From: Lentimicrobiaceae bacterium
GTDB taxonomy: Bacteria; Bacteroidota; Bacteroidia; Bacteroidales; F082
Assembly (NCBI GenBank): GCA_015061315.1
Contig: SUWV01000001.1
Span: 1-64,000 of the forward strand
Direction of reading: 5' to 3'
DNA length: 64,000 bases
The notes under the pieces were generated by a model. That model was not told the DNA's origin and searched no databases. It was given only the letters and a program-made list of their open reading frames with translations. Both the position numbers and the translations under genes were made by a program. Of the stretch, positions 17,325 through 22,144 are shown piece by piece. Every line of letters starts with the position of its first letter. Positions within the stretch are counted from its first letter, which is position 1.

Positions 17325-18434
17325 TTAGAATGTTAATCCTAATTTTAAGAAGAATGCGTTATCGCCATCTTTATATTTTTTATCAGATAAATCATAATCA
17401 TCTAAATATTCATTAACATCGCTACTTGTGTAATAATCTGGCAAATTATTGTAGCTGTAAGTCACAGAACTATGTGACTTATAGAACTTCCATTCAACAC
17501 CCACGTGGAACTTACCGAAAGCCAAACCTAATTCAGGAGAGAATGCAAGACCTTTGAAAGAAGCAGAAAGATTTTGATTTATATATTCAGCTATGCCATA
17601 ACTTCCCATTACTTTTTCAGATTTAGCTTTTTTGATAGGAAGTAAGAAACCAAAATCAACGCTGTAGTAAGGAGTTACTCCACTTTCAAAGAAATATCCT
17701 CTTACGTTTACAAACAAAGGTAGAGAGATAGCGCGTTCCTTTTCAAATCCATCGATGGCTGTTGTAAGGAAGCCCGTTCCACCTCCAATGCCGAGATAGT
17801 TGTTTATCTGTACGCCATATACTCCTTGCACATCTAAGACAAGGTTATCGCCACCAATTAATCCCAAGTTGGCGCCTGCCTCAATGCTAAAGAAATTTCC
17901 AAGTCGGCTCATCTTCTCTATTGTTTCCGATGTCTTTTTGTTAGTATGGGTTCTCACTTCTGTTATTCTCTCATAATCTGTGAAACCACCTTTAGCAATC
18001 TCTATGGCATGAGCTCTCATGGCAGCAGAGTCAGCGACAGATAGGCTTCTAAAGTTCACATACTTTGCAGGATAACCACTTATCTCCACAGTGATGTTCT
18101 TCATATCTTTACTTGTTGTAACGTTATATGTTGGAGCTACAATAACATCAGAATTAAATTCTCTCATCATCTTTGCAAGAGTAGCCTCTTTCCATGCCTC
18201 AACACTCTTATTATCAAACTTCGATTTTAAAGTCAGATCATTTTTAAAGGTTTCGTTTACTGTTTCTTTTGTTTCTGAAATATCCAAATCTGCTATTGTA
18301 GGAGTAATGTAAGGATTAATCATCACAGGCTCTGCTTGACGAGTCATGTATTCTTCATATGATATTTTCGTCGTTGTGCATGATGTAAAAATCATTACTG
18401 CTAATAACATAAAAGTAAATTTTAATGTCTTCAT
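17325..18434 (-). CDS. Hypothetical lipoprotein with C-terminal outer-membrane beta-barrel-like domain
   Basis: The 369-residue protein has a lipobox (MIFTSC, Cys about residue 19). An N-terminal region (about 20-190) contains TYNVTTSKDMKNITVEISGYPAKYVNF, which resembles DUF-type secretory domains that deal with conversion of small ligands. A C-terminal half (about 195-369) has alternating Gly/aromatic strands (GAGNLGLIGG-like) and ends in FFLKLGLTF, typical of small outer-membrane barrels. I do not recognise a specific family. No neighbouring gene is co-transcribed. A good terminator follows it. Confidence 0.6.
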   Translation of the reverse strand: MKTLKFTFMLLAVMIFTSCTTTKISYEEYMTRQAEPVMINPYITPTIADLDISETKETVNETFKNDLTLKSKFDNKSVEAWKEATLAKMMREFNSDVIVAPTYNVTTSKDMKNITVEISGYPAKYVNFRSLSVADSAAMRAHAIEIAKGGFTDYERITEVRTHTNKKTSETIEKMSRLGNFFSIEAGANLGLIGGDNLVLDVQGVYGVQINNYLGIGGGTGFLTTAIDGFEKERAISLPLFVNVRGYFFESGVTPYYSVDFGFLLPIKKAKSEKVMGSYGIAEYINQNLSASFKGLAFSPELGLAFGKFHVGVEWKFYKSHSSVTYSYNNLPDYYTSSDVNEYLDDYDLSDKKYKDGDNAFFLKLGLTF

Positions 18435-18494
18435 CTCTAATAGTTTTAAATGTTAATAAATTTTTATTACGCACCTCATTCTGACAACATACAC

Positions 18495-18675
18495 AAAAAA
18501 AAGAGCGTGGTGCAATGTCGCCTAATTTGTGATCTTGAGGTTCTGGACTACCTAAAACTAATCAAATTAATCGAACAAAGCCCACGCATAACGCGTGAGC
18601 GTTTTAAAGCTTTGTCCTTGATTAGTTTTTTGAAATTGTCCAGATTTCAAGAATCACAAGTTAGCTAAAACGCCT
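18495..18675 (-). ncRNA. Structured ~180-nt noncoding RNA, copy 1 (6S-like rod)
   Basis: The minus-strand transcript is predicted from a TAAGTTTG promoter (18687-18680) to a run of eight U (18502-18495). Helices seen: GTCCAG/CTGGAC with an adjoining 12-bp stem (plus-strand 18524-18547 with 18638-18660), AACTAATCAA/TTGATTAGTT (18556-18565 with 18618-18627), a CAAAGC/GCTTTG stem, and an apical hairpin GCTCACGC..GCGTGGGC (18580-18600). Copy 2 at 21473-21655 keeps the same helices with different paired bases, so covariation supports a real RNA. Length and bubble-interrupted rod shape recall 6S RNA, but identity is unproven. Confidence 0.72.
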
Positions 18676-18679
18676 TTTC

Positions 18680-18687
18680 CAAACTTA
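18680..18687 (-). promoter_or_regulatory. -7 element (TAAGTTTG) for ncRNA copy 1
   Basis: Exact TAnnTTTG match about six bases before the predicted RNA 5' end. An ATATACACAT stretch further upstream is also conserved at copy 2. Confidence 0.65.
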
Positions 18688-18929
18688 CAATGTGTATATA
18701 ATTACGATTATTTTTCTGTTTCTTGACTCCTTTTTTGGTTATTATCCCATTTTTTTCTTAATGCAAAGGTAATTTATTTTTCAATCAGTAGTGAAATTAA
18801 CTTTGTCTTTTTCAGTTTTTCTTAAAATTTTTATGTAAAATTATCTTAATTTTCATTTACAATTGATTGATTTATATTGAAAAGAAAATTTTTTTCAAAA
18901 AAATGTCGAAATTACAATTTTTATTGTAG

Positions 18930-18937
18930 TAATTTTG
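18930..18937 (+). promoter_or_regulatory. -7 element (TAATTTTG) for topA
   Basis: TAnnTTTG match 58 bases upstream of the topA ATG. The remaining 18.69-18.93 kb gap is AT-rich and shows no other feature. Confidence 0.6.
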
Positions 18938-18995
18938 CACGCGAGAAACGTTATTATTTCGTTATACTTTTTTTGAAATTAAACACATTATATAT

Positions 18996-21314
18996 ATGGT
19001 AAAAAACTTAGTAATTGTCGAGTCTCCTGCCAAAGCTAAAACGATAGAAGGTTTTTTGGGAAAAGATTATGTAGTGAAGTCGAGCTATGGTCATGTGAGA
19101 GACTTGAACAAATCGAATCTTAGTTTAGACATGGATAATGGCTTTGAGCCTATATACAACATTCCATCCGACAAAAAGACATTAGTTGCCGAGTTGAAGA
19201 AGATAGCAGAGAAAGCCGAGATGGTTTGGTTGGCTTCCGATGAAGACCGCGAAGGAGAATCAATATCATGGCATCTTTATGAGACCTTAGGATTAAAAGA
19301 AGATAAATATCGTCGTATAGTTTTTCATGAGATTACGAAGACTGCCATTGCTCATGCCATCGACAATCCTCGTAAGATCGACATGGACTTAGTATCTGCT
19401 CAGCAGGCGCGTCGTGTCCTCGACCGTCTCGTCGGTTATGAGTTGTCGCCCTTGCTTTGGAAGAAGGTGAAACCATCGCTCTCCGCAGGTCGTGTGCAGT
19501 CGGTCGTTGTCAGATTGATTGTTGAATGCGAGGAAGAAATAAAGAACTTCAAGCAGACGAGTTCGTTCCGTGTGACAGCGATATTCACTTTCACCGTCGA
19601 TAATAAAGAATATTCTTTAGCAGCAGAATTACCATATCGTTTCGAGACAGAAGAAGAAGCTCTCGCTTTCTTACAAAACTGCAAAGAGGCATCATATAAG
19701 ATAAAATCAATAGATAAGAAGCCTCTGTCGAAGATGCCAGCTCCTCCTTTCACGACATCGACATTACAACAAGAAGCTGGTCGTAAACTTGGATTCTCCG
19801 TGAGCAACACCATGCGTATAGCACAACAGCTTTACGAGTCAGGAAAGATAACTTATATGCGTACCGACTCCGTCAACCTCTCACAATTTGCCCTTATGTC
19901 GGCTAAGAAAGAGATTGAAAATATGTATGGACCTCAATATGCCAAGACACGACAATTCTCAACGAAATCGAAAGGCGCACAAGAAGCACACGAAGCTATC
20001 CGTCCTACATACTTAGACCAACAAACCATCAAAGGAACCGCCGATGAACGTAAGCTCTACGAACTTATCTGGAAACGTACCATCGCCTCTCAGATGGCAG
20101 AAGCTCAGATTGAGAAGACAAACGTAAGTATTGAAATATCTAATTCCGACAAAGAATTTACTGCAAACGGTGAAGTCGTTATGTTCGATGGCTTCTTGAA
20201 AGTATATACCGAGAGTACAAATGAAGAGCAGGGAGAGACAACGAGTGGAATGCTGCCTCCTCTCACAGTAGGTCAAGTACTCGACTTAGAGAAGATGGAA
20301 GCACAACAACGTTTCACACGCCACACTCCTCGTTATACAGAGTCGAGCCTTGTGAAGAAAATGGAAGAACTCGGAATAGGACGTCCTTCTACCTACGCCC
20401 CTACAATCTCAACAATACAAAAAAGAGGCTACGTGGAGAAGAAAGATATTCAAGGTGAAGTTCGTAACTATAAGCTTCTCACCCTCAAGAAAAATAAGAT
20501 AACAGAAAAGATAGGAAAAGAGAATATCGGCAACGAGAAAGGAAAACTCGTTCCTACTGACATCGGCGTTCTCGTCAACAGATTCTTAACTCAATATTTC
20601 GACACTATCGTGGATTATAACTTCACCGCTAATGTAGAGAAAGAGTTCGACAAGGTGGCTGAAGGCGAGTGCAAATGGAACGCTATGATCGCCGATTTCT
20701 ATAAAGACTTCCACAAGAAGATTGAAGAGACATCTGATAACTCAGGTAAATTCAGCGGAGAGAAATATCTTGGCATCGACCCTGAGTCGGGTAAGAATGT
20801 TTATGTGAAGATAGGTCGCTTCGGCCCTGTGGCTCAGATAGGCGACACCGACTCTGACGAGAAACCTAAGTTTGCTGGCTTGAAGAAAGATCAAAGCATA
20901 GAGACTATCACGTTAGAAGAAGTCTTAGGTTTGTTTGCCTTCCCTCGCACACTCGGCGAGTTTGAAGGTACAGAAGTACAGATTGCCATCGGCCGCTTCG
21001 GTCCATATATCAAACATAACAACACCTTCTATAGCCTCTCCAAATTGGATGACCCTGCAACGGTGACATGCGAGAGAGCTGTGGAGATAATAGAGACAAA
21101 ACGTAAGACTGACCAAGATAATATCGTTTCAACATATCCTGAAAACGAAGACTTGAAAGTGCTGAAAGGTCGCTTCGGAATCTATATATCGATGAACAAA
21201 CAAAACTATAAGATTCCAAAGACATACGACCCTACGAAGTTAAGCTATCAAGATTGCATGGATATCATCGCCAATCCAGATAATGCTTCCAAGAAAAGAG
21301 GGAAGAGTAAGTAA
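18996..21314 (+). CDS. topA: DNA topoisomerase I (type IA)
   Basis: The 772-residue protein relaxes negatively supercoiled DNA. It shows the Toprim motifs VESPAKAKTIEGFLG and SDEDREGESISWHL, the active-site region SGKITYMRTDSVNLS (catalytic Tyr) and the HEAIRPT motif. The C-terminal part (about 590-770) has topoisomerase C-terminal repeats (GRFGPYIKHNN, GRFGIYISMNK) rather than Cys4 zinc ribbons. It is flanked by inverted copies of the ~180-nt ncRNA. Confidence 0.96.
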   Translation: MVKNLVIVESPAKAKTIEGFLGKDYVVKSSYGHVRDLNKSNLSLDMDNGFEPIYNIPSDKKTLVAELKKIAEKAEMVWLASDEDREGESISWHLYETLGLKEDKYRRIVFHEITKTAIAHAIDNPRKIDMDLVSAQQARRVLDRLVGYELSPLLWKKVKPSLSAGRVQSVVVRLIVECEEEIKNFKQTSSFRVTAIFTFTVDNKEYSLAAELPYRFETEEEALAFLQNCKEASYKIKSIDKKPLSKMPAPPFTTSTLQQEAGRKLGFSVSNTMRIAQQLYESGKITYMRTDSVNLSQFALMSAKKEIENMYGPQYAKTRQFSTKSKGAQEAHEAIRPTYLDQQTIKGTADERKLYELIWKRTIASQMAEAQIEKTNVSIEISNSDKEFTANGEVVMFDGFLKVYTESTNEEQGETTSGMLPPLTVGQVLDLEKMEAQQRFTRHTPRYTESSLVKKMEELGIGRPSTYAPTISTIQKRGYVEKKDIQGEVRNYKLLTLKKNKITEKIGKENIGNEKGKLVPTDIGVLVNRFLTQYFDTIVDYNFTANVEKEFDKVAEGECKWNAMIADFYKDFHKKIEETSDNSGKFSGEKYLGIDPESGKNVYVKIGRFGPVAQIGDTDSDEKPKFAGLKKDQSIETITLEEVLGLFAFPRTLGEFEGTEVQIAIGRFGPYIKHNNTFYSLSKLDDPATVTCERAVEIIETKRKTDQDNIVSTYPENEDLKVLKGRFGIYISMNKQNYKIPKTYDPTKLSYQDCMDIIANPDNASKKRGKSK

Positions 21315-21472
21315 ATTTACAGTTAACAATTTACAATTAACAATTAAAATTTTAGAGAAAAATAGTTTATAATAAAAAAATAATTATTTTTGTCACTAAG
21401 AAAATAAGTCGTAACAAAGACATTTGCCTATGAAATAAAAAAATCTATTTTAATATACACATCATAGAATAG

Positions 21473-21655
21473 AAGAAAGCGAAGTAGCTTAACACTGGAT
21501 GCTTTGAAACTTGGACACTTTCAAATAACATCTCCCAGAGTAAGGCGACGTTCGCTCACGCTATATGCGTGGGCTTTACTCGTTGTAGTTGGGAGATACG
21601 GTAGTCCAAGACCTAAAAGCATCCAATGAAAGCGATAAAGTGCCACGTTTTTTTT
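21473..21655 (+). ncRNA. Structured ~183-nt noncoding RNA, copy 2 (6S-like rod)
   Basis: This plus-strand paralogue of the 18.5 kb RNA ends in eight U (21648-21655). Helices: TGGATGCTTT/AAAGCATCCA (21496-21505 with 21616-21625), CTTGGAC/GTCCAAG (21510-21516 with 21604-21610), ATCTCCCA/TGGGAGAT (21530-21537 with 21590-21597), GAGTAA/TTACTC, and the apical hairpin CGCTCACG..CGTGGGC (21553-21574). The apex, the bubble sequence GGAC.n.TTTCAAA and GGTAGTCC are nearly identical to copy 1, whereas several helices differ on both strands. The promoter is weaker by eye (CATAGAAT after a conserved ATATACACAT). Confidence 0.72.
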
Positions 21656-21672
21656 ATGTGTATATTTCTCAT

Positions 21673-21731
21673 AATATCTCCCGGCACAAAAAATAAAACA
21701 ATTATCCAAAACCGACGTGCCGATGGGATAT
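21673..21731 (+). promoter_or_regulatory. Long hairpin in the leader of the small secreted gene at 21749
   Basis: ATATCTCCCGGCAC (from about 21673) pairs imperfectly with GTGCCGATGGGATAT (to about 21731), just before the ATG at 21749. It could be a leader structure or part of a further small RNA. Nothing else explains it. Confidence 0.35.
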
Positions 21732-21748
21732 AACTGGCGAAAATTGAA

Positions 21749-22144
21749 ATGAAAAAAGTATTATTAGCTTTATCATTGGTGTTAGGATTATTTATATACT
21801 TAAATGCGGAAAATAATAATAACACCTTAACTACACAGAATGAAGTTCAAACAATATCTGGATTTTATGCAAGTGTCAGTGAAACTTTAGTCAATACAAC
21901 ATACCAGCAAGAAGTATATTTATACACTGATGGAACTTGCGTAGTAAGAACTACTGACGGAAGAGGAACTGGCAAATATAATTTATCAGGTGGAACTATC
22001 TATATCAATTGGGATAATGGTATTAATCAACAAGGTTCTTATTCTTCAGTAAAAGATGTTAAAAATAGAACTCGCATTAAAAGTATTACAATAGAAGGTG
22101 TTACTTACACAAACACAGAACGTTTTGTCGTTAGAAGAGGCTAA
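21749..22144 (+). CDS. Small secreted protein of unknown function
   Basis: The 131-residue product has a signal peptide (MKKVLLALSLVLGLFIYLNA). A compact beta-rich domain follows with a strand pattern LYTDGTCVVRTTDGRGTGKYNLSGGT seen in two parts around residues 68-95; this resembles small lipocalin-like or DUF-type envelope proteins. I do not recognise the family. It lies 33 bases before a small lipoprotein gene and probably forms a two-gene unit with it. A strong palindromic terminator follows the second gene. Confidence 0.65.
   Translation: MKKVLLALSLVLGLFIYLNAENNNNTLTTQNEVQTISGFYASVSETLVNTTYQQEVYLYTDGTCVVRTTDGRGTGKYNLSGGTIYINWDNGINQQGSYSSVKDVKNRTRIKSITIEGVTYTNTERFVVRRG

Follow-up and report, generated by a model that had tools for sequence, protein, structure and literature searches.

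The stretch of DNA studied here, referred to below as the window, comprises 64,000 nucleotides of a Lentimicrobiaceae bacterium of the order Bacteroidales (GenBank assembly GCA_015061315.1, contig SUWV01000001.1, positions 1 to 64,000). It contains the gene topA (18996-21314 in the list of open reading frames, ORFs), and on either side of topA lies one of two structured RNAs in inverted orientation, at the places where an earlier note made from the sequence alone had put them. Each of these RNAs, copy A on the minus strand and copy B on the plus strand, forms a rod of around 170 nt, and in both cases a gene on the same strand starts 70-100 nt beyond the end of this core. We consider it likely, with a probability of roughly three in four, that the two copies are structured 5' leaders, each for the gene downstream of it, and that they belong to one cis-acting leader RNA family of Bacteroidia. 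The features of the two loci are as follows, in the order in which they would be transcribed.

Copy A, minus strand:
18764..18771, -: -7 promoter box TACCTTTG (TAnnTTTG), read from the sequence
18742..18750, -: mini-ORF ATG GGA TAA (Met-Gly-stop), without the GCCT prefix of most relatives, read from the sequence
18690..18699, -: 5' strand of the flanking helix P0 (ATATACACAT), from the sequence and the P0 complementarity test on 195 elements
18505..18674, -: structured RNA core (rod); covariance model R1 134 bits, E 5.4e-29 in the own genome; fold z -6.7
18582..18587, -: segment Y (GCGUGG), 3' strand of the apical hairpin, covarying with its apical partner and with segment Z
18509..18514, -: 5' strand of helix S2 (UGCACC), overlapping Z by 2 bases, from the S2 test
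18505..18510, -: segment Z (CCACGC), adjoining the U-tract and complementary to Y, from Y:Z covariation
18495..18502, -: U-tract (U8), read from the sequence
18487..18495, -: 3' strand of P0 (UGUGUAUGU), from the P0 test
18470..18475, -: 3' strand of S2 (GGUGCG), the pair found in the S2 test for the window copy
17325..18434, -: gene behind copy A, encoding a 369-aa protein with a lipoprotein signal (MKTLKFTFMLLAVMIFTSC), from the ORF list

Copy B, plus strand:
21385..21392, +: -7 promoter box TATTTTTG, read from the sequence
21430..21438, +: mini-ORF ATG AAA TAA (Met-Lys-stop) after TTTGCCT, read from the sequence
21453..21462, +: 5' strand of P0 (ATATACACAT), from the P0 test
21478..21648, +: structured RNA core (rod); R1 160 bits, E 2.4e-35 in the own genome; fold z -6.9
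21567..21572, +: segment Y (GCGUGG), from covariation
21640..21644, +: 5' strand of S2 (GUGCC), from the sequence and the S2 test
21643..21647, +: segment Z (CCACG), from covariation and the sequence
21648..21655, +: U-tract (U8), read from the sequence
21656..21665, +: 3' strand of P0 (AUGUGUAUAU), from the sequence and the P0 test
21683..21687, +: 3' strand of S2 (GGCAC), from the sequence and the S2 test
21749..22144, +: gene behind copy B, encoding a 131-aa secreted protein (MKKVLLALSLVLGLFIYLNA), from the ORF list

The rods of copies A and B fold with -64.6 and -70.2 kcal/mol, energies that none of 200 dinucleotide shuffles equalled, and the window contains exactly two instances of their apical hairpin pattern, where 100 shuffles predict 0. 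The two copies are 70% identical over the part aligned by BLAST, with pairing retained, and their alignment bears out the paired changes that had been claimed for them: helices are altered on both strands, and the apical hairpin and the bubbles are kept. Two sequences by themselves are thin evidence for a structure, and it is the homologues that supply the rest.

A BLASTN search of 40 related genomes with copy B as query turned up relatives within the genus as well as additional copies in the own genome, most of the listed rows being weak. The covariance-model search that the earlier note had proposed was run with R1, a model built from a 17-sequence MAFFT alignment, and recovered homologues with kept pairing in other Bacteroidales genomes. 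Within the genus, R1 matches 93 of 99 genomes at E <= 0.01, and it matches all 46 genomes with a completeness of 90% or more and a contamination of 5% or less; a matching genome has between 1 and 16 matches. The own genome has 8 matches at E <= 5e-8, so that the count of two copies stands for the window but not for the genome. In its family according to GTDB, matches at E <= 0.001 are found in 95 of 173 genomes and 3 of 16 genera. An exact degenerate pattern occurs in at least 119 stretches of named genome records, and among the 80 matches listed, all of which are also matched by R1, the record titles include Alistipes, Rikenella, Millionella, Barnesiella, Coprobacter, Muribaculaceae, Prevotellaceae and Paludibacteraceae. 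Among cultured bacteria, Millionella massiliensis carries a copy (L217). At E <= 1e-4, a wider model, R2, has matches in 100 of 295 genomes across the order, among them 87 of the 244 good genomes, and in 68 of 183 genera, own genus included. In a sample of the phylum it matches 25 of 296 genomes, and the 24 besides the own genome all belong to the same class. Judging from these matches, the RNA family spans Bacteroidales and other families of the class Bacteroidia.

Conservation of the fold was assessed on 107 homologues (alignment A3), in which 97.3% of cells are paired compared to 70.2% in shuffles, two-sided changes occur in 31 of 34 pairs, and the covariation score is 0.702 against 0.203 when shuffled and at most 0.099 when slid. 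The A3 alignment was fitted to the model structure and hence favours it, but the unfitted 17-sequence MAFFT alignment agrees (34 pairs, 21 with two-sided changes), and a more diverse alignment, A4, with 93 distinct rows and two added helices has two-sided changes in 34 of 43 pairs. G-U pairs far outnumber A-C pairs in both (257 versus 21 in A3; 234 versus 15 in A4), unlike what would be expected for the complement, and the RNA is therefore read in the sense of the downstream gene. Mobile repeats of the MITE type (miniature inverted-repeat transposable elements), whose inverted ends would mimic a stem, could account for dispersed copies, flanking inverted repeats and tandem pairs, yet the copies in the own genome have diverged with pairing kept, and the placement ahead of a gene start is retained. 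Viral contigs contain no match to the exact pattern, nor do the plasmid and phage sets contain one to copy B; all of these are weak tests, and overall we regard such a repeat as very improbable. Integron attC sites, invertible promoters and REP elements were set aside as explanations, given that the orientation relative to genes and the sense-strand G-U bias fit a leader.

Genomic context was analyzed for a non-random sample composed of the better-scoring listed matches from the genus and family searches together with the 80 listed degenerate-pattern stretches, which was reduced from 204 to 199 elements by dropping those with a repeated upstream flank plus core start. The Bacteroidota -7 promoter motif, TAnnTTTG, is most frequent 71-120 nt ahead of the core (128 occurrences in 195 elements, about 5 in shuffles) and is carried by both window copies, in keeping with the shared promoter context that had been noted for them. 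In the 90 nt that follow the core, between RNA and gene, the motif is not enriched (5 versus 11.1). In 168 of the 199 elements, an ORF of 60 aa or more begins on the same strand no further than 350 nt away, and the start codon lies a median of 62.5 nt behind the U-tract (110 leaders), whereas the nearest upstream gene may be on the same (98) or the opposite strand (87). The conserved structure thus lies, in the sense of the downstream gene, between a promoter motif and a gene at constrained distance with no promoter motif enriched between them, as judged from motif statistics.

The genes behind the RNA are strongly biased toward exported proteins. By a simple hydropathy rule, 134 of the 168 downstream ORFs have a signal-peptide-like start, whereas among the other ORFs of 100 aa or more at these loci it is 174 of 586 (p 1.4e-31); counted by sequence cluster, the downstream figure is 51 of 68. 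In the own genome, starts of the signal-peptide type were seen by eye behind 7 of the 8 copies, two of them standing in tandem before one gene; one of these seven starts is broken after 12 codons and another lies 197 nt away, and the eighth copy precedes a 182-aa ORF without a clear signal. Relatives of the 369-aa protein of copy A stand behind the same kind of leader at four other loci (L096, L106, L112, L132; a short match at L212), as does a relative of the 131-aa protein of copy B with 36% identity (L073). A Pfam search gave no match for either window protein; for the proteins behind eight relatives, it returned a BspA-type leucine-rich repeat, a von Willebrand A domain, three restriction or helicase matches and no match for the remaining three. 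We infer from this arrangement that the leader RNA would regulate the gene downstream of it.

The orientation of the window copies follows from the same arrangement: they are inverted because the two genes behind them, which flank topA, are oriented that way. Neither a link to topA nor an inversion of it, both suggested for the pair, finds an echo elsewhere, since topA is present in just 2 of 206 other fetched loci (L226, L102; loci are short, median 3.9 kb), and topA is a mere neighbour of the two copies.

A 6S RNA had been suggested on account of rod shape, length and bubbles; such a homologue would regulate RNA polymerase in trans by binding it and templating product RNAs (pRNAs). The likeness to 6S RNA (RF00013) in these respects is real, and at least one copy is present in each of the 46 good genomes of the genus. 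The leader RNA differs in that it is multi-copy, linked to genes in a 5' leader position and equipped with helices reaching past the U-tract, whereas 6S would be a stand-alone RNA in one or few copies; here we find 8 copies in the own genome and up to 16 elsewhere, while 195 of 295 genomes of the order lack an R2 match at E <= 1e-4. The RF00013 model gives 0 matches in the own genome at E <= 10, a weak test in that the model matches 1 of 60 genomes of the order. Overall, we find a 6S identity scarcely credible. In Bacteroides thetaiotaomicron, a 6S RNA with pRNAs is reported in the part of PMC7366714 available to us, and it is set beside this leader by description only.

Searches against Rfam, which the earlier note had likewise called for, gave no identity for the element. 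The scan of the window at gathering thresholds returned one tRNA and nothing at the element, a scan of 18400-21750 at E <= 10 gave four chance-level matches of which two overlap copy A (mir-7371, E 4.4; Leu_leader, E 5.4), and a scan of ten relatives at E <= 0.5 yielded three matches that all lie elsewhere in the loci. Bacteroidales-1 (RF01693), a candidate structured RNA according to the sections of PMC2864571 covered here, resembles the leader in length (179 model positions) and in its occurrence in Bacteroidales, but the 8 weak matches that it has in the own genome when the search is opened to E <= 10, the best of them with 21.2 bits against a cut-off of 60, sit at other places and none at the element, so this candidate was rejected.

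The earlier note had taken the U8 as the end of a terminated transcript of about 180 nt. A T run of at least four follows the core in 196 of the 199 elements. Complementarity runs on past this point. In the 196 elements with a T run, a segment before the U-tract is complementary to one that ends about 25-30 nt past it (helix S2), with a score of 13.63 versus 10.83 when shuffled and 11.53 when partners are swapped between elements, and with variants such as GUGCC/GGCAC, GCACC/GGUGC, GCUCC/GGAGC and UGUCC/GGACA. Similarly, the strands outside the A- and U-tracts pair as helix P0 with a score of 14.86 versus 11.08 shuffled and 12.2 swapped (195 elements with enough upstream sequence); the shuffles for both helices preserved base composition only. 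Since the 3' strand of P0 and the U-tract sit within the loop of S2, the arrangement is pseudoknot-like, and since pairing extends beyond the U-tract, the RNA probably continues past it, so that U8 is probably not an end and both pairing and gene context indicate a leader that runs on into the gene.

These results also bear on a stand-alone small RNA that would end at U8 and lie before exported genes incidentally. Such an RNA would be well served by its own promoter motif and the U-tract, and the larger distance to the next gene in other families would suit it. We nonetheless hold it to be improbable in view of the pairing past the U-tract, the lack of -7 motif enrichment between RNA and gene, the tight gene spacing in the main set and the strongly biased class of downstream genes.

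If the RNA is a 5' leader, its order from 5' to 3' would be the TAnnTTTG promoter, a mini-ORF in many members, P0, an A-tract facing the U-tract, the rod, S2 bracketing the U-tract and the 3' strand of P0, some 40 A-rich bases and the start codon. As the likeliest mechanism given a leader, though one that we put forward tentatively and at somewhat less than even odds, we propose a switch by refolding. In the stable state, the apical strand Y would be paired inside the rod and the gene would be read through; in the other state, Y would pair with Z just ahead of the U-tract to form a terminator-like stem, while the conserved bubble sequences would fold into two small hairpins of their own, GAAA:UUUC and AGGY:RCCU. 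The choice between the states would depend on a metabolite, a protein or a ribosome occupying the mini-ORF. In the alignment, 97.3% of Y:Z cells are paired and 4 of the 6 pairs show two-sided changes, and the Y:Z pairing is complete, in coordinated variants, in 139 of 195 elements; the bubble pairings reach 98.6% for GAAA:UUUC and 97.1% for AGGY:RCCU, the latter with U-A to C-G exchanges.

Two other readings of a cis-acting element draw on the same conserved bubbles. The first is a riboswitch whose metabolite ligand would be the signal controlling surface and accessory genes. This would agree with the pseudoknot-like topology, the alternative pairing beside the U-tract and the use of one leader type on many unrelated genes; but these genes share no pathway that would name a ligand and known riboswitch models have no match at the element, and we think that this explanation is unlikely. 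The second builds on the put RNAs of phage HK022 and the EAR element, which bind RNA polymerase so that later terminators are read through. A cis-acting RNA of this kind would suit the rod's place early in the predicted transcript and ahead of unrelated genes (68 clusters), as well as its sequence-conserved bubbles in a structurally conserved frame. We still judge it a rather poor bet, because many downstream genes are short and the Rfam scans, to which the comparison with put and EAR is limited, gave nothing at the element.

The mini-ORF motif GCYNATG lies 15-120 nt upstream in 125 of 199 elements (median 48 nt), and the ATG is followed by an in-frame stop after 0 codons in 2 elements, 1 in 81, 2 in 24, 4 in 13, 5 in 3, 6 in 1 and 8 in 1, so that 123 of 199 elements have an ATG with a stop 0-5 codons on (67 of 134 among the first loci and 56 of 65 among the later, named ones). 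The other two frames remain open for at least 8 codons in 89 and 86 of the 125. Independently of the prefix, among the 139 of 195 elements with a -7 motif, 108 have an ATG behind it, and a stop follows the first such ATG within 5 codons in 89 of these 108 compared to 34 and 36 in the other frames. The ATG GGA TAA of copy A is located further upstream than the ATG AAA TAA of copy B. A pairing of GCCUAUG with CAUAG upstream, seen by eye, was rejected because relatives with GCCAATG break it. The sequence AAACAG occurs at a similar place in 22 of 73 elements without the mini-ORF motif and 10 of 122 with it; members with AAACAG and no GCCTATG-type mini-ORF are L083, L103, L127, L133, L143, L151, L152 and copy A of the window.

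Such strong selection for an in-frame stop would be explained by a relay of ribosomes, in which the mini-ORF serves as sensor or landing site and a ribosome that terminates shortly before P0 is handed over the rod to the start codon, or opens P0 by stalling. The rod does separate a short ORF from the gene, whose start region is left free, with S2 ending a median of 39 nt before the ATG (64 leaders with strong S2). This idea resembles translational attenuation and, in its bolder form, the ribosome shunting of plant pararetroviruses, for which we know of no bacterial example. It is opposed by the absence of the strict motif from 74 of 199 elements and, by eye, from other families of Bacteroidia, and we see it as possible but doubtful. 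Translational attenuation that combines a very short ORF with an extended structured leader is known for tetQ of Bacteroides conjugative elements, likewise in a Bacteroides-group bacterium; tetQ attenuation concerns one resistance gene whereas the leader RNA stands ahead of dozens of unrelated gene families. The most far-reaching version, a class-wide device in which an ATG-X-stop minigene, a pseudoknotted rod and strand exchange would let a finishing ribosome decide on the reading of an exported gene, up to a counterpart of shunting, is a long shot.

Several observations weigh against a cis-acting leader with a refolding switch as set out above. Shuffled controls overstate significance for related sequences. 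Just 3 of the 16 genera of the own GTDB family match R1, with 2 matching genomes outside the own genus, and the 195 genomes of the order without an R2 match are a majority of that set. Of the 199 elements, 31 lack a same-strand ORF of 60 aa or more that begins no further than 350 nt away, and 34 of 168 downstream proteins have no signal by the hydropathy rule. In 20 loci of other Bacteroidia families no mini-ORF was seen by eye, adding to the elements of the main set that lack the strict motif, and the next gene there is often 140-310 nt off, which would also suit a stand-alone RNA; 3 of these 20 loci have no ORF of at least 60 aa within 400 nt. As for the switch, the forced Y:Z state costs a median of 17.1 kcal/mol relative to the rod (computed without a shuffled control), the loop between Y and Z is long, a simple terminator scan of the window called no terminator at the U-tracts, the 5' strand beside the A-tract could hold Z instead, and what looks like pairing of the bubbles may reflect tertiary contacts inside the rod.

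If the leader reading is correct, a regulatory RNA without a match in Rfam release 15 at the places tested would be present, in one or several copies, in many genomes of Bacteroidia, and this RNA would command secreted, lipoprotein, adhesin-like and some restriction genes. The expression of surface proteins in bacteria of the gut and the environment could then be approached through one common element. The minigene of many members permits a direct test of whether two-codon translation controls what lies past a 170-nt structure. Supplementary tables aside, the portions of the literature covered, including PMC2864571, PMC8040213, PMC7366714 and PMC9723704, contain no description of this leader RNA. 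Fremin and Bhatt 2021 (PMC8040213), in the text at hand, list 3161 automated candidates from human-microbiome genomes with palindromic Bacteroidetes candidates such as HMP2_4205 (132 bp) and HMP2_1032 (106 bp), and some candidate of theirs may be part of this leader family. PMC9723704 describes 64 structured 5' regions of a flavobacterium, part of which lack Rfam hits; members of this leader family may be among them.

A few further features of individual loci deserve mention. In the 20 loci of other Bacteroidia families, the rod lies closer behind the -7 motif, and the next genes include, judging by the translations, SusC-like receptors, an ECF sigma factor, response regulators and proteins with signal peptides. 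At L038, L090 and L099 the RNA occurs in tandem pairs, with starts about 220-260 nt apart, ahead of one lipoprotein family of the MKKILLSLAVASLAAVFASCGSS type, and in the Tannerella-type records L234 and L239 the leader lies ahead of a serine-recombinase-like gene, as read from the translation. At L039 (G000:C24:51546-51708) the signal-peptide ORF ends after 12 codons (MKKLFLVLVCCI), possibly a decayed gene with its leader retained. An extra conserved stretch, roughly ACGGAGUAACCGAAAAGCC..AAGUGAGUAGG, is found downstream of the core and ahead of the gene in L039, L323, L175 and L249. Finally, the start region of restriction- or helicase-type genes (ACAUCAUGAG or similar; L142, L150, L165, L170) could pair with GUGAUGU after the U-tract, which by eye makes for a possible start-codon hairpin.

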